Source of the DNA: a virus
IMG/VR virus record: IMGVR_UViG_3300021087_000047
Coordinates: 1-32,408 of that record
Reading direction: 5' to 3' (one strand)
DNA length: 32,408 nucleotides
How positions within the stretch are numbered: the first letter of the stretch is position 1; every line of letters starts with the position of its first letter. Shown here piece by piece: positions 10,409 through 22,187 of this stretch. Position numbers and translations under genes: made by a program. The notes beneath the pieces were generated by a model, which saw only the letters and a program-made list of their open reading frames with translations, was not told the origin of the DNA and did no database searches.

Positions 10409-12541
10409 ATGAAACCTTTTCTTGAAGTAATCACAGAACAATCCCCTAATGATAAGCTTGATAAGCTTACACATAACATACCTTTATCTACAAAGAGATT
10501 AAAACAGTTAAATAACTTTTCTGATCTTGCTTTAATGTTTGATTTTGAAGGTTGGCAGGGGTATCCACCTCCAAGTAATTCATCAAAAGTTGCTTTTGAT
10601 GAAATTCAATATCTAATTGGATTACAAGAATTCCGTGATCAATGGGAAACAGATATGAGAATGCATGACACAAAAGTAATAAAAGCATTCAGAAAGTATG
10701 TTGACAAACATAATTTAGAAGTTGATTTAGACGAAATTAAAAGAATTTCAGATCAAGCAGATTCAATTATATTATCACTTAAAAGATTTTATAACAGACC
10801 TAGACCAAAAGTGTTAGCTAACAAGTTGGGTTTAGGTTTTTCATTTTTTCCATTAAAGACAGCAGAAACACCTTCTTATCCATCAGGACACGCAACTCAT
10901 GGAAGATTGGTGGCTAAATTAGTAGCTGATGAAGTTCCATTTGAACATAGAAGAAATATAATAAGAATGGGAGAAGATATAGGTGAAGGCCGAATGATAG
11001 CTGGAGCACATTATCCTACTGATACAAATTTTGGACATTTATTAGGAGATGAATTATATAGATTAGCAAAATCATCTTCATCAGAATTAAAATTAGAGAC
11101 TTTAGGAGAAATGACACAAACTGCATTACAACAAAAAATAGCTGATTTAGACCCCGGCTTAGATGTACATTCAACAACAAAAAGAATAGCTAATACTGGT
11201 GATATGTCAAACAAAGACTTTGAAAAAATACTTAAAGACAAGTTAGATGCTAAGAATGTAAAACTTATTAATCCTAGAACAGGAAAAAATAAGAGTGCAG
11301 TATTTGATATGTTTGAATTTGAAATTGAAGGAGATGATAAAGTATATGATATAACATTAGCAGGTAAAGTAGCTGGTAGAAGTTCACAAGGAACATCAGA
11401 TAATGAAACATCATTTTTACTTGTTTTAGCAGCCAGACAAGCTGGTGCTAAAGATGATATAGAAGATATAGCTATTAAAATGATAGACCCGAATGTTTAT
11501 GGCAAAGTATCTAACGGAAAAGGAATAATAGGAGAAGAACAAGCTAAAAAATTACTAGCTTATGTAGAAAATAATGAGAGTTGGTTTACTTCTCATAGAT
11601 TACAAGTTAATGCATTACTGAAAGCAATAGGTAAAAATATTCCGAAATTATATGTAAAAGATGACAGTTCATTAGATGTTAATACACAAGCCGTAGACTT
11701 ATATAAACAAGATTTTGGATTAAGTATAGCTAGGTCTTTAGATAAATGGAATCCAGCAGATGTATGGTTATATTATGACAGAAAAGTTCCTGACCATTCT
11801 AATTTAACAGCGTTAAATATGTATTTGTATTATTCAATTAAGTCTGCACAAGGTGTTATAGGCATATCTCTTAAAAAGGGATCAGGTATATTAGGATATA
11901 AAAATTATCACGAACCTGATAAAATACATTTAAAGAAAGTAGATTTAAAAATGTCAGCATTAGGCTCATTATCAGGTACATTAGCATTTGTAGGTGATGG
12001 TGTTGATGGTATGAGTTTAGGATTTAGAATTTTTGATGCAAAAGATACTGGTTTAATTAGAGGAGAAGGTGAGAAGAAAGGAGCAGAAGCAGTTCAAGGT
12101 AAAGTGGCGTTAGAGTTATTAGATACTTTTACAGGTAAGAGATGGAAAAATGACATAACTAGTGCTGGTGGTGCAGATATATTAGAATTAAAGAAAGGTA
12201 AATGGTCATTTACTACAAATGGAAAGAAGAAATTTAAAACAGCTAAAGCTAATTGGACATTTATATCTAGAAGAACAAATTTGACATTTGCTAGAGGAGC
12301 TAGTAAAATGAACCATAGTAATGCATTTAGAAGTGAAAATACATTTTTAAAATGGTTAGATAAACAAGATAAAAAGGAGAATGCAGGAAAGGCATGGGTT
12401 AATTCTAAGTTTCAAGTATTAGAATTATTTTCTAAATTACATAGTATGTCTCAAATTGAAGAAAAGAAATTAGCATTCGCTTTATTAAAATACGCGAAGT
12501 CTGAATCAGAATGGTCAGCAGCACATTTAAAGTTAGAGTAA
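10409..12541 (+). CDS. PAP2-family phosphatase fused to a nuclease-like domain, putative virion protein
   Basis: This 710-residue protein starts FLEVITEQ, like a capsid-targeting peptide with an I-x-E site at 8-10. Residues 90-220 carry the three PAP2 acid-phosphatase motifs: K125-x6-R132-P133, PSGH (158-161), and R195-x5-H201-x3-D205, with both catalytic histidines present. PAP2 enzymes release phosphate from lipids or small phosphoesters. Residues 320-500 contain E333, NPADVW with D451, and IGISLKK with S487-x-K489, an arrangement reminiscent of PD-(D/E)XK nucleases whose last motif is S-x-K; this second call is tentative. The C-terminus has beta-like and then helical segments of unknown role. 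No membrane segment is seen, so the phosphatase domain is probably soluble. The next gene starts two bases downstream. Confidence 0.75.
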   Translation: MKPFLEVITEQSPNDKLDKLTHNIPLSTKRLKQLNNFSDLALMFDFEGWQGYPPPSNSSKVAFDEIQYLIGLQEFRDQWETDMRMHDTKVIKAFRKYVDKHNLEVDLDEIKRISDQADSIILSLKRFYNRPRPKVLANKLGLGFSFFPLKTAETPSYPSGHATHGRLVAKLVADEVPFEHRRNIIRMGEDIGEGRMIAGAHYPTDTNFGHLLGDELYRLAKSSSSELKLETLGEMTQTALQQKIADLDPGLDVHSTTKRIANTGDMSNKDFEKILKDKLDAKNVKLINPRTGKNKSAVFDMFEFEIEGDDKVYDITLAGKVAGRSSQGTSDNETSFLLVLAARQAGAKDDIEDIAIKMIDPNVYGKVSNGKGIIGEEQAKKLLAYVENNESWFTSHRLQVNALLKAIGKNIPKLYVKDDSSLDVNTQAVDLYKQDFGLSIARSLDKWNPADVWLYYDRKVPDHSNLTALNMYLYYSIKSAQGVIGISLKKGSGILGYKNYHEPDKIHLKKVDLKMSALGSLSGTLAFVGDGVDGMSLGFRIFDAKDTGLIRGEGEKKGAEAVQGKVALELLDTFTGKRWKNDITSAGGADILELKKGKWSFTTNGKKKFKTAKANWTFISRRTNLTFARGASKMNHSNAFRSENTFLKWLDKQDKKENAGKAWVNSKFQVLELFSKLHSMSQIEEKKLAFALLKYAKSESEWSAAHLKLE

Positions 12542-12542
12542 T

Positions 12543-13730
12543 ATGGAATTTTTAACAGAAGCAGCAGGAAAGAACTTACATTTAGAACATCTTGAAGATG
12601 AGATTCTAAATTTTGGTATTGCTGGTGGAAGGAGTTCAATACAATTTCTACAAGCATTACGAGATATGTTTAAAGGTGGTTCTGGATCAAAATTAAATGT
12701 AACAGTTAAATGGGATGGAGCACCAGCTGTATTCGCAGGGCCGCATCCAGAAACGGGCAAATTCTTTGTAGCTACAAAAAGTTTATTCAGGAAACGCAAG
12801 GCAGACACAGCTTATTATCATACAAACGCAGATATAGATGCAGATAAATCTGGAGAGTTAGCTGCTAAACTAAAAGTATGTTTAGCAGAGTTTAGTAAAT
12901 TGGGTATGAGAGACATATTACAAGGTGATTTAATGTTTACAGATGATGTTTCAACAATGGATATAGATGGAGAATCATATTATACATTTCAACCAAATAC
13001 AATTTTGTATGCTGTAGCTAAAGATAGTAAATTAGGTAAAGCAATTAACTCAGCCAAGATAGGTGTAGTTTGGCATACGACATATAAAGGTGATTCAATA
13101 GAAAATTTAAAAGCTTCTTTTGGAGCTAGAATACCAAGTAAATCAACTGCAGTATGGCAAGATGATGCTAAATATAAAGATGTCTCTGGTAAAGCTAACT
13201 TCACAGCAGCAGATACAGTAAGAGTAACTAATTTATTATCACAAGCAGGTAAACAATTTCAAAGAATAGATTCTGTTAGTTTCAATGCATTTCTTAGATG
13301 GCAAGACACAGTTCCACCAGGAGTCGGGTTTAAAAGTTATCTAAATACATATACAAGAGCTGGAAAACCTTTACCAGCTTCTGGAAAAGCTGTACAAATG
13401 TATTTTAAACATTTTAACGATTGGTGGCTTAAAAACAAAGATGAAAAGAATTTAAAAATGCATTTAGCAGAAATCAGAAAAGCTACAACAGCATTAAAAA
13501 ATGTAGTAGATTTTATGAGACTTCTATTACAAGCTAAAATGATGATTGTTCAAAAATTAAATGATGCTAAAGGAATAGCTAGAACTTTTGTTAAAACTCC
13601 AACAGGATTAAAAGTTGTCAACCCAGAAGGGTATGTCGCGATTGACAAAACAGGTGGAGCTGTTAAAATAGTAGATAAATTAGAGTTTAGTTTTAATAAC
13701 TTTACAGTAGCAAAGAATTGGGATAAGTAA
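12543..13730 (+). CDS. ligase-like covalent nucleotidyltransferase, putative virion protein
   Basis: The 395-residue protein begins MEFLTEAA, with an L-x-E site at 4-6. Motif I of the ATP-ligase/capping superfamily is KWDG (56-59), K56 being the expected AMP-binding lysine. FVATKSLF (75-82) and GDLMF (128-132) fit the downstream core. EGYV (362-365) matches motif IV and AVKIVDK (373-379) motif V, although the distance between motifs III and IV is unusually long, about 230 residues. I recall this family as a domain of unknown function in marine T4-like phages. Whether it joins DNA or RNA, or transfers a nucleotide to protein, is unknown. Its stop TAA overlaps the next ATG by one base. Confidence 0.7.
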   Translation: MEFLTEAAGKNLHLEHLEDEILNFGIAGGRSSIQFLQALRDMFKGGSGSKLNVTVKWDGAPAVFAGPHPETGKFFVATKSLFRKRKADTAYYHTNADIDADKSGELAAKLKVCLAEFSKLGMRDILQGDLMFTDDVSTMDIDGESYYTFQPNTILYAVAKDSKLGKAINSAKIGVVWHTTYKGDSIENLKASFGARIPSKSTAVWQDDAKYKDVSGKANFTAADTVRVTNLLSQAGKQFQRIDSVSFNAFLRWQDTVPPGVGFKSYLNTYTRAGKPLPASGKAVQMYFKHFNDWWLKNKDEKNLKMHLAEIRKATTALKNVVDFMRLLLQAKMMIVQKLNDAKGIARTFVKTPTGLKVVNPEGYVAIDKTGGAVKIVDKLEFSFNNFTVAKNWDK

Positions 13731-14905
13731 TGAGTGCAAAAGATCAAACAAATTTTATAAAACTTGCAGCTAAGGGTTTTAAAGCTATGGCTAAGTCTGT
13801 AAGTTTTGATGTAGAATTAAAAAAACTAGCTTTAGATGCAGCTAAGTTTGCAAGGAAAGGTTATCTAACATTTCAGAATTGGTTTCAAAAATTACCTTAT
13901 GAGGATAAGTTAGCATTAGGTGGTGAATTATCTTTTTTTACGAGACAAACAGATAAGACTATAGAGAAGATGTTGAAATTTAAATTTGAACAGAAAGAGC
14001 TAAAAGATTTTAAAGATATAACAGAGGATGCGGATAAAGGAGCTACATTTACATTTGGTAGATTTAATCCACCAACAGTTGGTCATGTTAAGTTAGCCAC
14101 TAAGATGAAATCAGTTTCATCAGGACATGATGTTTTAATATATACTACTCACACAATAGACAAGACAAAGAATCCATTAACAAATGCTCAGATACGAAAG
14201 TTTATGAATCCTATGTTACCAAGAGGTATTAGTGTACAAACATCTGCTTCTAGAACAGTATTTGATGTTCTAGTAGATTTATATGATAATGGGTATAGAT
14301 ATATTCAAATGGTTGTTGGATCAGATAGAATAATGGAGTTTGACAAATTATTAAATAAATATAATGGAGTTAAATCAAGACACGGATATTATAATTTTAA
14401 ATCAATTAAAGTTGTATCAGCTGGAGACAGAGATCCAGATGCAGAGGGAGCAGCAGGTATGTCAGCATCTAAAATGAGACATCTGGCTTATTCAGATCAA
14501 GAAGATGAATTTATTAAAGCTTTGCCTAGAGGTTATAGATTAGGTAAACAATTATATTCAGCAGTGAGAAAAGGAATGGGTATAACAGAAGATTTTCCAG
14601 ACTTTATGTTGAGTGAAGTATATACTGACACCCATGTTCCACAAGTACATGAATGGGGTTCACAAGAAGGTAGAGAGTATGCACAAGACTTTACACCATA
14701 TGAACCTGTAGTTGATTGGAGAAAAATATCATCATGGAGAGAACAAGAAGATTTACCTAAAAAAGTATTAGCCTATAAAGAAAAGATGTACAAAGAATTA
14801 AAATCAGAGAGAGATGATTTCACAAAAAGATATGGTGAAAGAGCTGATGAAGTAATGCACGCAACAGCAATGACAATGGCTAAAAGGAAATATGGATATA
14901 CTTAA
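13730..14905 (+). CDS. HxGH-type nucleotidyltransferase with extra N- and C-terminal domains
   Basis: The 391-residue protein has a helical N-terminal region (1-96), an I-x-E site at 97-99 (DITED), and then a Rossmann-type nucleotidyltransferase with GRFNPPTVGH (110-119) and the second motif MSASKMR (244-250), as in NMN adenylyltransferases and cytidylyltransferases. THTIDKTKNPL is a signature I recall from related phage proteins. Further L/I-x-E sites follow the domain (ITE 285-287, LSE 294-296), so the enzyme core is bracketed by candidate prohead-protease sites. The substrate is unknown; NMN, nicotinate mononucleotide or a sugar phosphate are possible. It overlaps the kinase gene by 14 bases. 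Confidence 0.8.
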   Translation: MSAKDQTNFIKLAAKGFKAMAKSVSFDVELKKLALDAAKFARKGYLTFQNWFQKLPYEDKLALGGELSFFTRQTDKTIEKMLKFKFEQKELKDFKDITEDADKGATFTFGRFNPPTVGHVKLATKMKSVSSGHDVLIYTTHTIDKTKNPLTNAQIRKFMNPMLPRGISVQTSASRTVFDVLVDLYDNGYRYIQMVVGSDRIMEFDKLLNKYNGVKSRHGYYNFKSIKVVSAGDRDPDAEGAAGMSASKMRHLAYSDQEDEFIKALPRGYRLGKQLYSAVRKGMGITEDFPDFMLSEVYTDTHVPQVHEWGSQEGREYAQDFTPYEPVVDWRKISSWREQEDLPKKVLAYKEKMYKELKSERDDFTKRYGERADEVMHATAMTMAKRKYGYT

Positions 14906-15629
14906 TTACAAAGAAGATGATTTAGTTTTAGATGAAGGGGTTAATGATCCTGGAATATTTAAGGCGATTATACTAGCAGGTGGTCCTGGTAGTGGTAAGT
15001 CTCATATAGCTAAGAAATTAGGATTAGGCACAATGGGTTTAAGAGTAGTTAATTCTGATGCATTTTTTACTATGTTATTGAAAAAGAAAGGTCTTTCATT
15101 AAAGATGCCAGCCGATGAAAATGAAGAAAGAGAAGCGGCTAGAATGGCAGCTAAAGCCTTAACAGATAGACTATTATCAACAACTATTGATGCTAGATTA
15201 GGAATACTTGTTGATTCAACATCAGGAGATCAAAAAAAGACTGTAAATATAATAGCCAAGTTAAAAGCAGTAGGTTATGATGTTAAAGTAATATTTATAG
15301 AAACAAGTTTAGAAACAGCACAAAAAAGAAATCAGCAACGATCAAGAACATTACCACCTACAGTTGTAGATTTTTCTTGGAAGGGAGCTCAGAAAGTAAA
15401 ACCACTCTTAAAGAGATCGGTAGGTACTTTAAATTATCACGAAATAGAAAATGAATTTGATGGAAAAGTAGATGTATCCCTAGCAGGTAAATTAACAACA
15501 TGGGCAACTAAACTTCCAATTAAAGGTCAATTATGGGTAGCAGCTGTTAAAAGAGGACAAGATTCTATGACTACAGAAACCATAAATACCAGTATAAGAT
15601 CATTTTATCAGTTTTGGAGTAAACAATAA
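14892..15629 (+). CDS. P-loop kinase (polynucleotide kinase/zeta-like AAA_33 fold)
   Basis: The 245-residue protein has Walker A GGPGSGKS at 30-37, an NSDAFF segment (DxD-like substrate pocket) shortly after, LVDSTSG as a likely Walker B region, and an ETAQKRNQQRSR arginine-rich lid. This order fits the kinase family including polynucleotide kinases, zeta toxins and chloramphenicol phosphotransferase; sequence reading cannot choose the substrate. An L-D-E-G site at 13-16 lies just before the P-loop domain, so prohead-protease trimming would leave the kinase intact. It follows a ligase-like and a nucleotidyltransferase gene in one overlapping operon, which suggests nucleic-acid end processing. 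Its last base is shared with the next ATG. Confidence 0.8.
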   Translation: MDILNYKEDDLVLDEGVNDPGIFKAIILAGGPGSGKSHIAKKLGLGTMGLRVVNSDAFFTMLLKKKGLSLKMPADENEEREAARMAAKALTDRLLSTTIDARLGILVDSTSGDQKKTVNIIAKLKAVGYDVKVIFIETSLETAQKRNQQRSRTLPPTVVDFSWKGAQKVKPLLKRSVGTLNYHEIENEFDGKVDVSLAGKLTTWATKLPIKGQLWVAAVKRGQDSMTTETINTSIRSFYQFWSKQ

Positions 15630-16474
15630 TGACAATAGCAACAACTAATGTAGGTGTAGCAGCAGTTAGAGCCGAATTAGGTCTATCATATTCTGCAGGA
15701 GATAATATATCATTATCAGATATGAATACAAAACATATTGCTGTTGACCTTAGCAACACAACTGATTCAAGATTCACATTAACTAAAAGAGCAGGTATCA
15801 CAATGACTACTGATGATGTTGCTACTTCAAATCAAAATGCATTAACTTCTAATCCATCAAGTCTTGGAGAATGGAGAAGCTATGATTATGTTAATCCGAT
15901 AGTATTCAGTTCTTATGGTGCATCTTATGCAAATGAAGATCAAACAGTTCAAGGTGAACTTGCAAGTTTTTCAACTAGTGGTTGTATAGGATATGGAATA
16001 AAAAATAGTGTAGAACTTTATTGTAAGAGAGTAGGTAATGATATAGTTTGGTATGGTGGAGAAGGAAGGTGGGGATCAACTCATACTACTAGTACAGAAG
16101 GTGGTGCTGTTATTACTTCTGATACAGAGGTAGCTAGATTAGCCGGTGCAGCGACAACAAGTTCAACAGGTGACACGACAGTTTCAGTTGCTATTAGTAC
16201 AGCTTATAATTCCTGGAATATTTTTACAGCAGGACCTGCAAATACATCTTCTGGTTCAACAAACTCACAATTAACATCAACAAATACAAAAGTGGGGTAT
16301 GAAAGTTATACATCAGGATATTCTGATTGTATCGCAGGTGGTGCATATAATGTCCATCGGTGGGCAAATGATTTTACAGTTACGCCTGTTGGAATGAATG
16401 CAAGAGTTTTTAGATTTTATACAGGTTATAGTATATATGCAATAACTCAAACACATGGCAGTGATTGTTGTTAA
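15629..16474 (+). CDS. Ser/Thr-rich virion structural protein, probably tail-fibre related
   Basis: This 281-residue protein is rich in S, T, G and A and almost free of lysine in its second half, typical of beta-rich fibre proteins. The N-terminus contains VRAELGLSYSAGDNISLSDM, a pattern I recall near the start of many phage tail-tip and fibre proteins. GEWRSYDY (residues 85-92) and a TTSTEGGAVITSDTEVARL stretch follow. Six cysteines include a final CC. No enzyme motif is present. Its place after the kinase and before small structural genes fits late expression. The exact virion position cannot be told. Confidence 0.7.
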   Translation: MTIATTNVGVAAVRAELGLSYSAGDNISLSDMNTKHIAVDLSNTTDSRFTLTKRAGITMTTDDVATSNQNALTSNPSSLGEWRSYDYVNPIVFSSYGASYANEDQTVQGELASFSTSGCIGYGIKNSVELYCKRVGNDIVWYGGEGRWGSTHTTSTEGGAVITSDTEVARLAGAATTSSTGDTTVSVAISTAYNSWNIFTAGPANTSSGSTNSQLTSTNTKVGYESYTSGYSDCIAGGAYNVHRWANDFTVTPVGMNARVFRFYTGYSIYAITQTHGSDCC

Positions 16475-16483
16475 GGAAATAAT

Positions 16484-16843
16484 ATGTTACATTTACACAA
16501 AGATTTAGAAATACACAGAGATCATACAGGTAAAAGTCAAACTGTTACAGTTTCTTGTAAATGTTATAGTGATTATGTTACTAAAACTGTATCTTTTCCA
16601 GAATCAGGTGATCCTGATATTCCAGAACCTACTGTTGATATAGAAATAACAGATTTTGATAGCATGACATTAAGAGGACAAATTGATGTTGAGTGGTTTG
16701 TACCAGATGAATTAGCAATAACAGGGACTTCTAGAAATGATGTTGCAAAGGCTAGAGCTTCTTGGACAGAATCATTTAACTCATATCAACCAATTATAAA
16801 CGCAGAAAAACAATTATTAACAGATTGTGCTGAATTTGATTAA
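16484..16843 (+). CDS. phage protein, function unknown (probably structural)
   Basis: AAGGA lies nine bases before ATG 16484, a good ribosome-binding site. The 119-residue acidic protein starts MLHLHKDLEIHRDHTGKS, has a beta-like TVTVSCKCYSDYVTKTVSF segment with a C-x-C pair and a DPDIPEP linker, and ends in a helix. It lies ten bases after the Ser/Thr-rich protein gene and may be its chaperone or partner, a common fibre arrangement, but this is inference. Confidence 0.65.
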   Translation: MLHLHKDLEIHRDHTGKSQTVTVSCKCYSDYVTKTVSFPESGDPDIPEPTVDIEITDFDSMTLRGQIDVEWFVPDELAITGTSRNDVAKARASWTESFNSYQPIINAEKQLLTDCAEFD

Positions 16844-16863
16844 CAAGTATCAGCATAGAAAAT

Positions 16864-16879
16864 TATAAATACATAAATA
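16864..16879 (+). promoter_or_regulatory. tandem late promoters (TATAAATA and CATAAATA)
   Basis: TATAAATA at 16864-16871 is followed immediately by CATAAATA at 16872-16879, both matching the T4 late -10 consensus. They lie in the gap before ATG 16902, which has its own GAGG ribosome-binding site, so here a normal leader of about 17-25 bases is expected, unlike the other late promoters. Confidence 0.65.
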
Positions 16880-16901
16880 GAATTAACAGAGGATAAAAAC
16901 A

Positions 16902-17177
16902 ATGTCACCATGGAAACCAATCACAACTGAAGCAGCTCTAGGAGTAAATACAGGAGCAGCATCTAATGTAGGAAGTAGTCGTTATGTACGATTATTAAAC
17001 ACAGCAGCTGTTGGAACAGAACATTTAGTAACTTTAGAACAATCAGGTGGTACAGATATAGGTACTTTTAGTCTAGAGGGACAACAAGAGGTTATCATTC
17101 AGAAAGACCCTTCCGATCAACTATTCGCAGCCAACGCGGCTGTAATGGCTGTTGGAATAGCAATCAATTCAAATTAA
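16902..17177 (+). CDS. small beta-rich structural protein
   Basis: The 91-residue protein begins MSPWKPITTEAALGVNTGAA, then has a beta-rich VRLLNTAAVGTEHLVTLEQ region and an EVIIQKDPSDQLFA segment. I recall short proteins with this PITTEAA start near structural genes of marine T4-like phages. ITTEAA resembles, but does not satisfy, the I/L-x-E cleavage rule seen in neighbours. GAGG precedes the ATG and a double late promoter lies upstream, supporting abundant late expression. It could be a decoration or fibre-adaptor protein; this is not resolved. Confidence 0.7.
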   Translation: MSPWKPITTEAALGVNTGAASNVGSSRYVRLLNTAAVGTEHLVTLEQSGGTDIGTFSLEGQQEVIIQKDPSDQLFAANAAVMAVGIAINSN

Positions 17178-17181
17178 TAAA

Positions 17182-19851
17182 ATGTCTGGACACATAGTAA
17201 ACGATTTTAAAGACCTGCGTAGTTTAATAACCGCAGTTACAAAAGCTAACCCAGCTAAAACTACTCGCCAACAAAACGAGAAAAAAATGGGTATTCATAA
17301 AGAAGATGAAGCACAACCCATAGACGATAAGAAACCAAAAGAGAAAAAGTTTCATGCTGGTGAGGAAGAAATTAAAAGAGCATATCTAAATTTAGGTAGA
17401 GCAGCACAAGGTTCTCTTGAATATCAAAGAAAATTACTTCAAAAAGAATTAGCTAAAATGGGTTTCAAAACTTATTCTCAGTTTGCATTTGATGCAATCT
17501 TTAAGTTTGAACAGAAAGATAAGAAAAAGAAATGGAAAGAACCTTTAAAAGGCTTTCCTGGAAATGAAGAAATTGATGAAAACATTCAACTTGAGAGTGC
17601 TCTTTCAGATATGCAAGATATTGTTAAGACTAAAGGTGCTAAGAAAATTGGTGGTGTAATGGTTGATATGTTTACTGCTAGTGTTATAACAAACGCTTAT
17701 AATAAAGTAAGTGACGCGAACAAAAAGAAGTTGGAAACAGCTAATCTTCAAACTTTAGTTAAACTAGCACACAAGATTATGGGTATGAAAGAAGAACTCA
17801 ATCTAGACGAAGGTAAAATGAGTGATCTTCTTATTGATATTCAACAAGGTGCTACAGCTAAAGAGTTAGCTAGAGATTTTAATATATCTTTAGCAACAGC
17901 TAAGAATTTCCTTAAAGACTATTACGGACAAAAGAAAGGTTCAAGAAAGGAAGAAGTTGAAGAATCTGTCAATGAGAGTAATTGGGGATTTGTATTCTAT
18001 AATAAGAAATCTTTAGACAATTTCCTTAAAGACCCATATATCAAAAGTGTGACAAAAAATGTTACGATAGACAAAGCAAAATTCAGAGGTGGTAAGAGTG
18101 GATTTGATGTTGGTATTGAATCAGATGCAGATTTAGGCCTTAATCCTTTAGCCAAAAAAGTAGATGCAATTAAGAAGAAATACGGAAAGCCTGGAGTTGA
18201 TTATGCTCATGTTGAACATGACGGTGAATCAATTAGTGAAGGCACATGGGCAGTTCCAGATTCATACAAAAAACTTTACAACTTACAAGTAGGTTTCTTA
18301 GCTATGAAAAAGGCTGCTACTGAACTTAATTCAAGAAAACTTTTAGTAGACCTATATAGTATTTTTGGTGATGATTCATTCTATGATGATGTTGAAAAAT
18401 ATATTGATACTCCCGATCCTAAATTTGATTTAAGAGATTTAATTGTCAAACACTTAACACCATTCGGACTTAAATTCAATAGTAGCTACAAAATAACTCA
18501 TGCTCCAAAAGATTGGATTGATAATCTAGGAAAATCAGAATCAAAAATTGAAGAAAGACTTATCGAAGGAAAACCAAGAAGAGGTAGAGGAAACATTAAA
18601 AGACCTAAGGGTAAAGTAGTTCCTTTAACAATGAGTAAAGAAGATAAACTTAAAGAACAAAAAGAACAAGCTCAAGAGTCTCCATTCAAATTAAAATCAC
18701 AACAATATCCAAGAGCAGTAGCAATTAATACTGATGGATTTGGAAAAAGACACGCGACAGTTGAAGATATTATAGCAGCATGCGACAGTTTTGGAATGAT
18801 ATTAGACAAAGAATTACAAGTAGAACAAATTCAAAAACAACTTGGGAAGGGTGGATTTATATCTTATAAACAAGTAGATTTAAATGATGTGTTTGAAGAA
18901 AGAGAAACACAAAGAATTATACTAGCATTAGAATCTACTGTAGAAACACAAGAGCCTATTGAATATACAAAATATGAAATAACAGAAGCGTATATTATGG
19001 GCGAAGAAATAGAATTTGTAAAACCAGATGGATATAAAACAGCTGGACCAGTATTAAAGAAAGGTGGAAATACTTTTAATGTAAAAGATAAATTTACAGG
19101 TAAGTCTTTCACCTATAAATATATAAACGAGGAACAAGAGGTGAAAACATTTACAGAAGTAATCAACGAAGTATCTATTGGAGACGCTGGAATTAGAAAA
19201 GACTTTCCTAATGTATGGGCTCAGAAAGATAAAAGAATGAACAAAATTCTAATGGCATTAGTTAATCTGCATGGGTATGTAGATAATCTAAAATCTTATA
19301 AAAAAGATAAAAAAGGTTTTGTTGATTCTCTAAAGAGAATTGGTAAGAATGATGCAGGATTAAAGAAAGCAGGTCTTACTAAAAGAGAAATTGGAGAAGA
19401 TATTCAAGAAGGTAGATTTTCAAAACAACTTATTAAACAAGCGGGTGGAATAGCCTTTGATAAGAGATATTACATGGGTAATATGACAGGCGCTATTAAT
19501 GCTATAGAGAAATTAAAGAAAGGATTATCTGATGATCCTAAAGTTAAAGAGATGTTAAGAATTGCAAATGAAGGCAATGAAACAACAGACTATACTAATT
19601 GGCTACCAGAAGGTGGTGATAAAGAAGCATATCAGAAATTCTTCAATGCAGCTTTAAAGAAATTTGGTGTTAGTTCACCAGATGAATTAGAAGGTGATAA
19701 GAAGAAAGAATTCTTTGATTATGTTGATAAGAATTGGAAAGGCGATCATGAAGAAAAAGAACAAGATGTTCATAAATCTTACAAAATGGATGGCCGAAGA
19801 AAGAATTTTAAAGAGAAGATGAGAAAACTCGGATACATTAAGGGTAGATAA
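17182..19851 (+). CDS. 889-residue multidomain virion protein, candidate prohead-processed polyprotein
   Basis: No single family is recognised. The protein is highly charged and mostly helical, with repeated acidic joints that match the T4 prohead protease rule (I/L-x-E): L208-D-E210/G, I351-S-E353/G, L460-I-E462/G, I600-T-E602/A, I661-N-E663/V and I741-Q-E743/G. Residues 655-664 (VKTFTEVINEV) look like an internal capsid-targeting peptide. Between joints are compact segments: 211-245 helix-turn-helix-like (ATAKELARDFNISLATAKNF), 266-350 alpha/beta, 354-450 helical, and 664-889. The end contains KKFGVSSPDELEGDKKKEF, a stretch I recall in head or structural proteins of marine phages. It may be an internal head protein set made as one chain. 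Confidence 0.7.
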   Translation: MSGHIVNDFKDLRSLITAVTKANPAKTTRQQNEKKMGIHKEDEAQPIDDKKPKEKKFHAGEEEIKRAYLNLGRAAQGSLEYQRKLLQKELAKMGFKTYSQFAFDAIFKFEQKDKKKKWKEPLKGFPGNEEIDENIQLESALSDMQDIVKTKGAKKIGGVMVDMFTASVITNAYNKVSDANKKKLETANLQTLVKLAHKIMGMKEELNLDEGKMSDLLIDIQQGATAKELARDFNISLATAKNFLKDYYGQKKGSRKEEVEESVNESNWGFVFYNKKSLDNFLKDPYIKSVTKNVTIDKAKFRGGKSGFDVGIESDADLGLNPLAKKVDAIKKKYGKPGVDYAHVEHDGESISEGTWAVPDSYKKLYNLQVGFLAMKKAATELNSRKLLVDLYSIFGDDSFYDDVEKYIDTPDPKFDLRDLIVKHLTPFGLKFNSSYKITHAPKDWIDNLGKSESKIEERLIEGKPRRGRGNIKRPKGKVVPLTMSKEDKLKEQKEQAQESPFKLKSQQYPRAVAINTDGFGKRHATVEDIIAACDSFGMILDKELQVEQIQKQLGKGGFISYKQVDLNDVFEERETQRIILALESTVETQEPIEYTKYEITEAYIMGEEIEFVKPDGYKTAGPVLKKGGNTFNVKDKFTGKSFTYKYINEEQEVKTFTEVINEVSIGDAGIRKDFPNVWAQKDKRMNKILMALVNLHGYVDNLKSYKKDKKGFVDSLKRIGKNDAGLKKAGLTKREIGEDIQEGRFSKQLIKQAGGIAFDKRYYMGNMTGAINAIEKLKKGLSDDPKVKEMLRIANEGNETTDYTNWLPEGGDKEAYQKFFNAALKKFGVSSPDELEGDKKKEFFDYVDKNWKGDHEEKEQDVHKSYKMDGRRKNFKEKMRKLGYIKGR

Positions 19852-19853
19852 AG

Positions 19854-20276
19854 ATGAGTTGGACACAACCAGGACAAGGATTTTTACGAGAAGTTTATTT
19901 AGAAGAAGCTCTTGGCACAATAAGACTAGGACAGTTAAAAGCCTTTAACGGGACTGTTCCTTTAGTTTTTAAACGAACTTCAGGAAAAGATGGTGGATTT
20001 CAAGAATATGATCTTGTTGGTAAATATAAACAAGCTTTATATATGACACTTGATGAACCGAACAAAGAAATCATGGTTTATTTGAATGTGGGTGATAACA
20101 ATTTAGATGATCTTACAACGGATATGTTTCCTAAAAAATATCACGATGCAGATGATACTGATTGGGAGTCTCAAAAACTTCAATGGAAGTTTTTTGACAT
20201 ACCAATGGAAAAAGAGATTGCTAAAGCAGTTAAAAGACAGTATCCAAAATTTAAATTTAAGCTTGGCGATAGTTAG
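19854..20276 (+). CDS. virion-associated protein with prohead-cleavage-like N-terminus
   Basis: The 140-residue protein starts two bases after the previous stop. Its N-terminus, FLREVYLEEALG, includes L16-E-E18, a candidate prohead protease site, and resembles the TYLSEVALG start of the protein at 21377. The remainder is alpha/beta (VPLVFKRTSGKDGGFQEYDL, KEIMVYLNVGDNN) with a basic end. No enzyme motif is visible. The shared N-terminal pattern and the operon suggest an internal head or head-associated protein. Confidence 0.65.
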   Translation: MSWTQPGQGFLREVYLEEALGTIRLGQLKAFNGTVPLVFKRTSGKDGGFQEYDLVGKYKQALYMTLDEPNKEIMVYLNVGDNNLDDLTTDMFPKKYHDADDTDWESQKLQWKFFDIPMEKEIAKAVKRQYPKFKFKLGDS

Positions 20277-20278
20277 CC

Positions 20279-20734
20279 ATGATTAATGAAGGTAGAAAAG
20301 CACCAGATTTGGGCATGCCTTCACAAGCGGGCAACAATCTTCTCTATGATTTAGTTAAAAAAGCTAAGTCAGAAAGAGAATTACTTAGTATGATTGACAA
20401 ATTAGCACTCAAGTTGGGTGGTAAATACAAAGATGCTAAGGACGAACTTATAACGAGAGCTGCAGTAGATGCATTTGACCAGAAAGGAAACAAAGGTCAA
20501 CAAGGTGTTTCAGACAGACAAGTTCAAGTTCAAATTGGAAGTGCAGCTGATTTATCAGGAGGCGGCACTATTAAATTAAATGATAAGAGTTCAATTAAGA
20601 TTGATCAGCGAACAGCTAAGAAAGTTTTAAAGAACTTGATGAACTTAAAACCTGCTCAGCGTGGTGATGTAACAAAAGCTATGCAGAAAGATAAAAACGG
20701 GTTTAATAAGTTCTTAAAAATACTAAATAGATAG
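20279..20734 (+). CDS. helical basic virion-associated protein
   Basis: The 151-residue protein begins MINEGRKAPDL, where I2-N-E4 is a candidate prohead protease site at the extreme N-terminus. The body is helical and basic, with a glycine-rich loop (LSGGGTIKLNDKSSIKI, about 94-110) and a C-terminal helical segment (TAKKVLKNLMNLKPAQRGDV). Basic charge would suit contact with packaged DNA. It starts three bases after the previous gene. No homologous family is recognised. Confidence 0.65.
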   Translation: MINEGRKAPDLGMPSQAGNNLLYDLVKKAKSERELLSMIDKLALKLGGKYKDAKDELITRAAVDAFDQKGNKGQQGVSDRQVQVQIGSAADLSGGGTIKLNDKSSIKIDQRTAKKVLKNLMNLKPAQRGDVTKAMQKDKNGFNKFLKILNR

Positions 20735-20764
20735 TATAATAATATTTTATTGGGAGATAAAACA

Positions 20765-21361
20765 ATGCCAATATGGGGAGCAACAGATTCAGACGAGTCT
20801 AAACCTAAACATTTGACAACAGCTCAAAAGAAAGAAGTATTCGCAAACGCAAGTGGGTGGGTAGTTGAAGCTGGTTCTACACAATCTGGGAACGACAACA
20901 CAAGTGCCGATCCAGAGATTTTAGTAGCAATCGGATCACTAGCAACATCATTGGGTGCAGCAGATATTACTGAAATTGATTGGATAACTACAGCAGCAGA
21001 CAAATCTGAAGGATTTAGTCTTTCTGTTAGAGTATTCTTTAACGAGCCAGTAGATGTTGATGTAACAAGTGGAGTACCATACTTAGCTATAACCAACAGT
21101 AATGCTGGTTCTGGTTCAGGTCGTGGACCACACAACTTACCTTATGTAAGTGGAACAGGTACTAATGAATTAGTATTCACATTAGCAATAGCAGCAGCTA
21201 ACGCAGCTACAAATGCTGATGATGTATTGAGTGTAGGAACCAATGCTATGAACTTAAATTCAGGTACAATCAAAGATGCTGGACAAACTGCAGTTGATAC
21301 AACTATTACTAATAGTTCAACTATTGGAACAGCAGCTGGTACAATAACAGTTACAGCATAA
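20765..21361 (+). CDS. structural protein with SwmB-like beta domain
   Basis: ATG 20765 is chosen because GGGAGA precedes it; the frame extends only five codons upstream to a TTG. The 198-residue protein begins MPIWGATDSDESKPKHLT with a KKEVFANASGWVV stretch, a start I recall as common to structural proteins of marine T4-like phages. Residues 85-180 (FSLSVRVFFNEPVDVDVTSG, YLAIT, YVSGTGTNELVFTL, GTIKDAGQTAVD) match the layout of SwmB-type immunoglobulin-like repeats found in surface adhesins, so a role in surface display or host contact is plausible. The C-terminal part is Thr/Asn-rich. Confidence 0.75.
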   Translation: MPIWGATDSDESKPKHLTTAQKKEVFANASGWVVEAGSTQSGNDNTSADPEILVAIGSLATSLGAADITEIDWITTAADKSEGFSLSVRVFFNEPVDVDVTSGVPYLAITNSNAGSGSGRGPHNLPYVSGTGTNELVFTLAIAAANAATNADDVLSVGTNAMNLNSGTIKDAGQTAVDTTITNSSTIGTAAGTITVTA

Positions 21362-21376
21362 TTTTAGGTTAAGATA

Positions 21377-21790
21377 ATGAAAAGCTTTAAAACATATTTA
21401 AGCGAAGTAGCTTTAGGCACCGGAACAGCTGGAATTACAGCTGACGGTGATTTTGACTTTCATAGAATGGACCAAGATGATGTAAAAGCCAGAGTTAATA
21501 CCTGGCTTTCAGCTAATATGCAAATGGAGTTCGCTACAGTTAATGCGGCTCTTATTCAATTAGCTAAAAAAGTACAACAACTTGGTATTTCTTTTGATGT
21601 ACAAGTAGAAGCGGCAGGCGATAGTGGATCGCTTCGAATACCTTTATCGGTATTCGGTGAAAAGGCAGATCCAACAGGAAACTATGTTGACAATTATGGT
21701 TCAACAATTCCAGAAAATCTAGTATTGGATATTCAATACGAGAAAATGCCTACTGGTGGATTTAGAGTATCAGGTAATATTCAGCAATAA
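21377..21790 (+). CDS. virion-associated protein with capsid-targeting-like start
   Basis: The 137-residue protein starts MKSFKTYLSE/VALG. This closely resembles the T4 internal-protein targeting peptide, which as I recall begins MKTYQEFIAEA, and the L8-S-E10 site fits the prohead protease rule. The body is alpha/beta with a predicted helix (EFATVNAALIQLAKKVQQLG) and a DSGSLRIPLSVFG strand pair. No enzyme motif is visible. It is the last member of the late cluster bearing such a start, and is a good candidate internal head protein. Confidence 0.7.
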   Translation: MKSFKTYLSEVALGTGTAGITADGDFDFHRMDQDDVKARVNTWLSANMQMEFATVNAALIQLAKKVQQLGISFDVQVEAAGDSGSLRIPLSVFGEKADPTGNYVDNYGSTIPENLVLDIQYEKMPTGGFRVSGNIQQ

Positions 21791-21795
21791 CCTTT

Positions 21796-21816
21796 TGTAA
21801 GTCATATATACTTACA
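21796..21816 (+). repeat. perfect inverted repeat over a start codon
   Basis: TGTAAGT (21796-21802) and ACTTACA (21810-21816) form a 7-bp stem around a CATATAT loop; the last paired base is the A of ATG 21816. No Shine-Dalgarno sequence separates it from the start. It could be a repressor operator, or an mRNA hairpin controlling translation of the next gene. Confidence 0.5.
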
Positions 21817-22187
21817 TGATGGATATTTTTGAAGAACTCAACGAGGAGAATTTTACCTTATTCGCGATTCGTCATTACGACAATCCACAATGTACATCAA
21901 CAGAAGAATTCTATGAAGATATTCGGAGATTCCGATATCTAAAGAGACTTCTTAAACGATATTACAAAAACGGCGAATTACGGGAAAGATTGATTCTCAA
22001 TCATCTTATAGTTTTAAACAATTTGTTTGGCGTACCAAACGCTATACGAATGTTAGAGTATAAGATAGAAGAGGAGTTCTGGCCTGTACTTAAAACATGC
22101 CTTTTATATTTAAATTATATTGAGGATAATTGGCGTCAAGAAATACCGTTAGATCAAGAAGTAATAAAAAGATTAAGAGAGTTATAA
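21816..22187 (+). CDS. conserved-looking acidic/aromatic phage protein, function unknown
   Basis: The 123-residue protein starts at one of two adjacent ATG codons (21816 or 21819). It is helical and rich in R, E, Y, L and F: DIFEELNEENFTLFAIRHYD, then a FYEDIRRFRYLKRLLKRYY segment and a LNHLIVLNNLFG helix. I recall similar proteins encoded next to structural genes in marine T4-like phages, without known function. It is followed three bases later by another conserved-looking gene, suggesting a functional pair. Confidence 0.7.
   Translation: MMDIFEELNEENFTLFAIRHYDNPQCTSTEEFYEDIRRFRYLKRLLKRYYKNGELRERLILNHLIVLNNLFGVPNAIRMLEYKIEEEFWPVLKTCLLYLNYIEDNWRQEIPLDQEVIKRLREL

Follow-up and report, generated by a model that had tools for sequence, protein, structure and literature searches.

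The sequence of a marine T4-like virus, IMG/VR record IMGVR_UViG_3300021087_000047 (32,408 nucleotides; the window, by which the whole stretch of DNA analysed is meant) carries on its plus strand, at 17182-19851, an open reading frame (ORF) whose translation confirmed an uninterrupted product of 889 residues. The product is a modular protein with relatives in other viral contigs (L001-L005), and it is proposed here to be a polyprotein precursor of internal head proteins. An earlier note on this DNA had taken it for a polyprotein of head components, jointed at six sites consisting of isoleucine or leucine, any residue and glutamate ([IL]xE). Neither the window protein nor ten others (eight from the fetched loci, one from Melnitz-3 and one from S-CREM2) contained a Pfam domain above cut-off, and the window protein gave no Pfam or PHROG match to the T4 internal-protein families (IPI, IPII, IPIII and Alt), for which these profile libraries were the searches made. 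The absence of a catalytic or conflict Pfam domain implies that the protein has no recognised built-in peptidase.

The chain divides into a series of segments, all encoded on the plus strand. Residues 1-133 (17182-17580) comprise, in the AlphaFold2 model, a leader-like helix, DFKDLRSLITA, and a folded domain at about residues 56-116, and end at IDE133/N, where the slash marks the position after the glutamate. The AKDLM module (DMFTASVI..., residues 134-210, 17581-17811) ends at LDE210/G and is delimited by counts of its upstream flanks and by conservation of E210. It is followed by the HTH module (residues 211-265, 17812-17976), a predicted three-helix, homeodomain-like unit ending at VNE265/S that is placed by upstream flanks, conservation of E265 and weak fold matches, by the SNW module (residues 266-353, 17977-18240; end ISE353/G; upstream flanks and conservation of E353), and by the GTW module (residues 354-462, 18241-18567; end LIE462/G; upstream flanks and a confident predicted fold). 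A basic linker and the CORE domain, with an SH3/Hfq-like barrel at about residues 596-648, occupy residues 463-650 (18568-19131; end INE650/E) according to the model, profiles and fold matches. Residues 651-663 (19132-19170), EQEVKTFTEVINE, align with leaders of the relatives L116, L100 and L124 and form a buried capsid-targeting-like leader (653-663) that is probably the scar of a gene fusion. The VSIG module (residues 664-739, 19171-19398), placed by its upstream flanks and absent or moved in relatives, precedes residues 740-810 (19399-19611), in which DIQE743/ is followed by the KFS module; this segment ends at LPE810/G, is supported by conservation of E743 and E810, and is widespread among relatives. 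The FFD module (residues 811-858, KKEFFDYVDKNWKGD, 19612-19755) matches phrog_28651, and a basic tail (residues 859-889, with the stop codon at the end of 19756-19851) is defined by the translation and the model. Residues 55-118 (17344-17535) and 508-650 (18703-19131) match each other in profile comparisons, a possible internal duplication.

All six of the sites first proposed as joints are present: E210 (LDE/G), E353 (ISE/G), E462 (LIE/G), E602 (ITE/A), E663 (INE/V) and E743 (IQE/G), with glycine following four of them (E210, E353, E462 and E743). One of them, E602 (codon 18985-18987), was ruled out as a joint, as it lies inside the helix 597-606 in a block with a predicted local distance difference test score (pLDDT) above 90 and is kept in 3 of 14 aligned relatives. 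The list was also incomplete: the window protein holds 12 [IL]xE sites rather than six, the additional ones being E133, E458, E492, E650, E739 and E810, and among the candidate joints that had been missed are E133, E265, E650 and E810.

Stronger evidence for a common signal than the site count comes from the module joints themselves. Profiles were built from the residues that follow each joint, so that upstream residues had no part in finding the copies, and only upstream flanks less than 50% identical to one another were counted; for GTW, 12 of 149 matches were removed for incomplete starts. A hydrophobic-x-Glu motif ended exactly at the module start in every distinct upstream context of GTW (46/46), HTH (27/27) and VSIG (7/7), in all four SNW flanks, and in 29 of the 36 AKDLM flanks, where it occurred in two registers (12 and 17). 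At other offsets the same motif was found in 0-10 of the flanks of GTW, HTH, VSIG and AKDLM. The hydrophobic position (P3) was isoleucine or leucine in 41/46 GTW, 21/27 HTH, 6/7 VSIG and 25/29 AKDLM joints, and no joint of GTW (46), HTH (27) or VSIG (7) had a P3 residue other than I, L, V, M or F, so that these joints do not follow an S/A-x-E or A-x-E pattern. The middle position (P2) varies freely, and this argues from sequence that the motif itself is under selection, though a domain could carry the motif along by inheritance.

A separate, independent test used the edges of alignments between relatives. Alignment-breakpoint starts fell within five residues of [IL]xE[GAS] in 51 of 356 cases (19.9 expected) and breakpoint ends in 38 of 328 (19.4 expected), values reached by 0 of 400 random placements in either case; the control motifs [ILVFM]xD and [ILVFM]xK were at or under expectation. 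Across 46 non-redundant family ORFs, [IL]xE[GAS] occurred 96 times (39.5 expected) and [VF]xE[GAS] 104 times (38.1 expected); P3 is therefore not restricted to isoleucine or leucine. Among the controls in these ORFs, [IL]xD[GAS] (21 vs 33.1) and [IL]Ex[GAS] (32 vs 39.6) were not enriched, and [IL]xK[GAS] was also raised (102 vs 64.9). Within the window protein, [IL]xE followed by glycine occurred five times against 0.77 expected (p 0.0008), in a class that was picked after the data had been seen.

The predicted structure places most joints between folded units. The AlphaFold2 model of the window protein had 68 alignment rows, a mean pLDDT of 72.9 and a predicted template modelling score of 0.36; alignment A5 used 67 of 168 candidate fragments, two of them poorly aligned. 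Compact high-confidence units, among them GTW with a pLDDT of about 95, are separated in the model by segments with pLDDT below 50. At E210, a module boundary, it shows a short loop of medium confidence, and a low-confidence segment is four residues away from E810. The structural check suggested by the earlier note thus came out in favour of joints that fall mostly in low-confidence linkers, with five of its six sites between compact segments of the model, and against E602, which is within a folded core. Among aligned relatives the sites are kept at E210 (25/26), E353 (22/24), E743 (23/24), E265 (5/5), E650 (11/14), E462 (11/16), E810 (11/16) and E663 (3/4), and less often at E133 (1/3), E739 (3/19), E458 (5/11) and E492 (7/14). 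A further motif match, E572/E573 (VFEE), is conserved within a helix, so that matches located inside folded units carry no information. The model depicts folded units parted by flexible, motif-bearing linkers, with E602 and E572/E573 as predicted in-fold matches.

L064, a relative with another module order, was modelled as well, at lower quality (65.5) and with a poor GTW part; its alignment had 11 fragments dropped and two added, of which one aligned badly (24%) and the other so-so (34%). In that model hydrophobic-x-Glu glutamates were near linkers in 17/24 cases vs 21/50 other glutamates (p 0.018). Foldseek returned no match under 1e-3 against the PDB and one against BFVD, a loosely aligned DUF5824 protein of an uncultured virus. 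On the Foldseek list, VIA-align scored the HTH region and the barrel at Z values of only about 6, which is below the safely readable level, and the models weakly suggest a homeodomain-type resemblance for the HTH unit and an Hfq/Tudor-type resemblance for the barrel.

Comparison with related phages, also proposed beforehand, showed that segments are shuffled and that at least one occurs as a separate protein. A whole-protein scan of viral contigs (best 80 of 166 relatives kept) was supplemented by scans with single units (GTW, 77 loci; AKDLM, best 80 of 171; HTH, 42; VSIG, 12). Relatives match the window protein piecewise, with L001 covering its full length. Residues 664-738 (VSIG) are missing from L002; in L004 and L005 residues 659-739 are placed behind 740-860, VSIG following FFD in L004; the order of HTH and AKDLM is reversed in L063; and the C-terminal unit is present in scores of other proteins. 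A survey with eleven profile models distinguished 56 architectures in 222 distinct proteins, 48 of them multi-module (in 122 proteins), a multi-module number that is inflated because some proteins are cut off by contig or locus ends. Both orders were seen for 18 of 33 co-occurring module pairs. The AKDLM module also occurs alone behind a leader, in a 94-residue protein of L244 (MKTFIQLTE/A) and a 79-residue protein of L217 (MKKFKEFRQVDE/A). No match to GTW was found in the cultured-phage collection, and none to the gene cluster by megablast.

Leaders of this kind are frequent around the gene and its relatives. In the fetched loci, 136 of 1808 distinct plus-strand ORFs start with KxF and a following hydrophobic-x-Glu, compared with a mean of 1.6 after shuffling of the first 30 residues and with 0 of 1335 minus-strand ORFs. 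Among the window's 13 genes at 10409-22187, 7 have hydrophobic-x-Glu within their first 18 residues vs 2 of the 23 other genes (NrdA and one trivial MAE), in a count for which a few gene starts were set by hand and are uncertain. The internal stretch KTFTEVINE/V, which had been likened to a targeting peptide, is present and aligns with buried leaders of relatives: the counterparts of residues 651-663 are MKTFGQVISE/AKFPKKL in L116, MKTFRQITE/AKFPKKL in L100 and MKSFSQIISE/AKFPKKL in L124, all internal and all retaining the methionine that is replaced by valine in the window protein. To judge from these sequences, the buried leader is probably what remains of the beginning of another gene that was fused to the first.

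A protease of the required type is encoded by the long relatives. Peptidase_S77 (gp21-type, PF03420) was detected in 6 of 20 records, which comprise every record of at least 69 kb and no shorter one, and its gene stands directly before scaffold-like and capsid-protein genes. The capsid protein carries a propeptide-site motif in all six (IGE/D, INE/T, MTE/A, ISE/V, ISE/A and LNE/T), two of the six phages being closely related; the position compared is one that we take to be about where T4 gp23 loses its propeptide. Related gene blocks also occur in cultured phages. In Melnitz-3 (Kyanoviridae, OM43 host) the same block lies between helicase and primase and includes DUF6267, a cytidylyltransferase and several leader-bearing genes, and its counterpart in S-CREM2 extends from gp154 up to the primase, gp162. 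Table 3 of the S-CREM2 report lists four of the seven products gp154-gp160 as virion proteins, namely gp154 (the cytidylyltransferase), gp155, gp156 and gp160 (PMC10665884). S-CREM2 gp154 starts with MKNFSSFLTE/A and is homologous to the product of window 13730-14905, and gp160 holds the CWK module that is also found in L064. A cytidylyltransferase (T4-GC190) was likewise reported in S-SM1 virions by Sullivan et al. (PMC3037559). No homologue of the 889-residue protein itself was detected in any virion, and the available sections of PMC9004378 contain no Melnitz proteome. The OM43 phage Melnitz has the KFS module in its protein QZI94975. As a separate observation, residues 17-70 of the virion-detected S-CREM2 gp160 (L309:11843-12736) match phrog_696, 'major head protein', and by sequence gp160 appears to imitate the part of the capsid protein that directly follows the propeptide site.

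The explanation favoured here, with a probability of roughly two in three, is that the gene product is a polyprotein made up of internal (prohead-core) head proteins and cut by the prohead protease at the joints, with most pieces ejected together with the DNA. The precursor would enter the prohead core via N-terminal and buried helices of the capsid-targeting type, and a gp21-type prohead protease would cut after hydrophobic-x-Glu in the linkers during head maturation. The best-supported candidate sites are E210, E265, E353, E462, E650/E663, E743 and E810; E133, E458, E492 and E739 are less certain. Cutting would free about nine small proteins with predicted folds, at least one of them probably nucleic-acid-binding, and the likeliest fate of most pieces would be to stay with the DNA and leave with it, as T4 internal proteins do. 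Because every joint is proposed to bear the same short cut site, phages could lose, move or gain modules with no harm to processing, which would account for the free shuffling. The earlier reading of a head polyprotein thereby keeps its core, in that separable and permuted units appear to be fused, a protease-type motif stands at their joints and one unit occurs alone behind a leader, and loses E602.

Several observations count against this explanation. The total of [IL]xE sites is at chance both in the window protein (12 vs 10.0 expected; 5000 residue shuffles, p 0.29) and in the 46 family ORFs (197 vs 199.9); the raw number was therefore dropped as evidence, and since [IL]xK[GAS] is raised as well, counting by itself is weak evidence. 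Some modules are less strict at their starts (GKY 14/19, CWK 7/13, KFS 24/38 with two offsets pooled, FFD 11/32 at one offset and 7/32 at another), and CORE and Ndom, whose edges were set arbitrarily, reach at most 1/6 and 0/5. Breakpoint ends show a slight excess of the control [KDNQ]xE (1.27x; starts 1.06x). The location in linkers is borderline, 9 of 12 [IL]xE sites lying within two residues of a low-confidence segment vs 28 of 63 other glutamates (Fisher p 0.051), and in L064 the corresponding figures are 8/13 vs 30/61 (p 0.31). The window, a 32-kb fragment, contains no protease gene, nor do 13 other shorter records, and the authors of the S-CREM2 study caution that some proteins detected in virions may be co-purified (PMC10665884). 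Finally, the window protein has no hydrophobic-x-Glu up to residue 24: SLITA stands at the leader end, where L001-L004 have KVIGE (DFKDLRKVIGE/), KIIGE, SLIGE and KAIEE at the homologous place. By analogy with T4 IPIII, in which aspartate at P1 inhibits processing with targeting still possible (PMC9026906), the first fragment may keep its own leader, because SLITA lacks the site.

The proposed precursor resembles several known systems in part. T4 IPI-IPIII and Alt have a short leader ending in L/I-x-E that is removed by the protease, and such leaders are found here on neighbouring genes and on the standalone module protein; unlike those single units with a terminal propeptide, the present chains contain many units, with motifs at the joints and in varying order (PMC9026906). 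The inner-body and ejection proteins of phiKZ, 201phi2-1 and SPN3US also have multiple protease sites, theirs in long propeptides, and are abundant; their motif is S/A-x-E or A-x-E, and the cuts strip propeptides and do not release a series of folded modules (PMC10052503, PMC9026906).

Of the alternatives, the one that survives best, although unlikely, is a prohead-core (scaffold-like) protein that is cut at the same joints, with pieces that mostly leave the head and a shuffling that reflects loose constraint on filler. Its model is T4 gp22, gp67 and gp68, core proteins that are cut by gp21, after L/I-x-E, into several fragments and mostly removed; the predicted several cuts per chain are a likeness to them, and the expulsion of their pieces is a difference from the window-type proteins as read here (PMC9026906). 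In favour of the core alternative, the gene that holds the FFD module of Pseudomonas phage SKa-4 lies between those for the portal and the head maturation protease. T4 core genes are located between the portal and protease genes, and for gp22, gp67 and gp68 we know of no module shuffling or standalone module proteins. Against such a role stand the compact domains, with pLDDT of about 95 and conserved sequences, the grouping of the gene with leader-bearing enzyme genes rather than beside the portal-protease-scaffold-capsid block, and the reported detection of cluster homologues or syntenic genes in finished virions. For P. putida phages no paper was found in the open-licence PMC literature, outside which most subscription papers lie.

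Less probable still is an uncut modular protein that works whole, hydrophobic-x-Glu being merely common in linkers or in DNA at recombination seams. The chance-level total of [IL]xE and the richness of the linkers in glutamate fit this alternative; it is opposed by the position-exact glutamate, hydrophobic P3 and free P2 in all 46, 27 and 7 unrelated flanks of GTW, HTH and VSIG, by the lack of comparable enrichment of [KDNQ]xE, and by the recurrence of the same motif at capsid propeptide sites and leader ends. A polyvalent-type early effector, injected whole as proposed for the large phage and plasmid proteins described in PMC5512222, would share the long, mosaic, multidomain chain, the presumed entry into the host with DNA and a place in a cluster of likely virion-borne enzymes, and is very improbable, since polyvalent proteins carry recognised enzymatic domains, often including a built-in peptidase if processed, and the present protein has no catalytic or conflict domain by Pfam and joints that fit a prohead-protease motif instead.

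Animal RNA viruses and retroviruses commonly make polyproteins that are cut into many functional pieces, but for tailed phages the notion is, to our knowledge, not a standard one. Leader, motif and protease are known T4-type parts; their arrangement here appears new, as no description of chains that combine many folded units, a cut-site motif at every joint and a freely permuted order was found in the open-licence PMC literature, most subscription papers being outside it. A broader proposal, tentative and held somewhat short of even odds, is that small injected proteins form an exchangeable repertoire in marine T4-like phages, linked into a single chain and released by the protease, with the cut sites as swap seams and a single targeting leader, behind which modules could be added or reordered to renew what the phage injects. 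If the polyprotein reading is true, many unannotated marine phage proteins could be read by splitting them at hydrophobic-x-Glu joints. It would predict which proteins are carried inside the head and supply a natural example of multi-cargo loading by one targeting signal, and virion proteomics of a cultured relative would put module function to a direct test.

Modules of the family turn up in other proteins. On other contigs (L141-L169) a GTW-like unit follows FESWAxxITE/GTWAIPDS near the end of proteins often of about 450 residues, which form a different protein class. The Tenacibaculum phage pT24 protein BAV39295.1 (L307:1123-3933), annotated 'DNA ligase 1', reads as a 936-residue chain that contains numerous hydrophobic-x-Glu sites as well as an FFD module, and similarly named Vibrio phage proteins match through the same module. 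The ligase name of BAV39295.1 looks doubtful, and a 'DNA ligase 1' function, suggested by the name that some phage proteins holding the FFD module bear, was rejected.

The neighbouring genes, all on the plus strand, were assigned from Pfam, PHROG, homology and the leader scan. They encode a PAP2-domain protein (10409-12541; leader MKPFLEVITE/Q), a DUF6267 protein (12543-13730; MEFLTE/A), a cytidylyltransferase-like protein with homologues reported in cyanophage virions (13730-14905), and a kinase-like AAA_33/Zeta_toxin protein (14892-15629; leader ...DLVLDE/G). Downstream of the 889-residue ORF are proteins of 151 residues (20279-20734; MINE/G) and 137 residues (21377-21790; MKSFKTYLSE/V; homologue in Melnitz-3), and the Melnitz-3 homologue of the 20750-21361 product is annotated 'putative S-layer protein'. 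A possible late promoter, TATAAATA (16864-16871, plus strand), which we take to be the T4 late-promoter core, lies about 30 nucleotides before the ATG at 16902, and the ORF from there ends 4 nucleotides before the ATG at 17182; the sequence occurs 9 times in the window vs 5.84 expected, a count not above chance and weak as evidence. The DUF6267, cytidylyltransferase and kinase ORFs (12543-15629) map to parts of phrog_455 (764 positions) and phrog_12810 (788), long families in other phages, so that whole enzymes are also fused and split.

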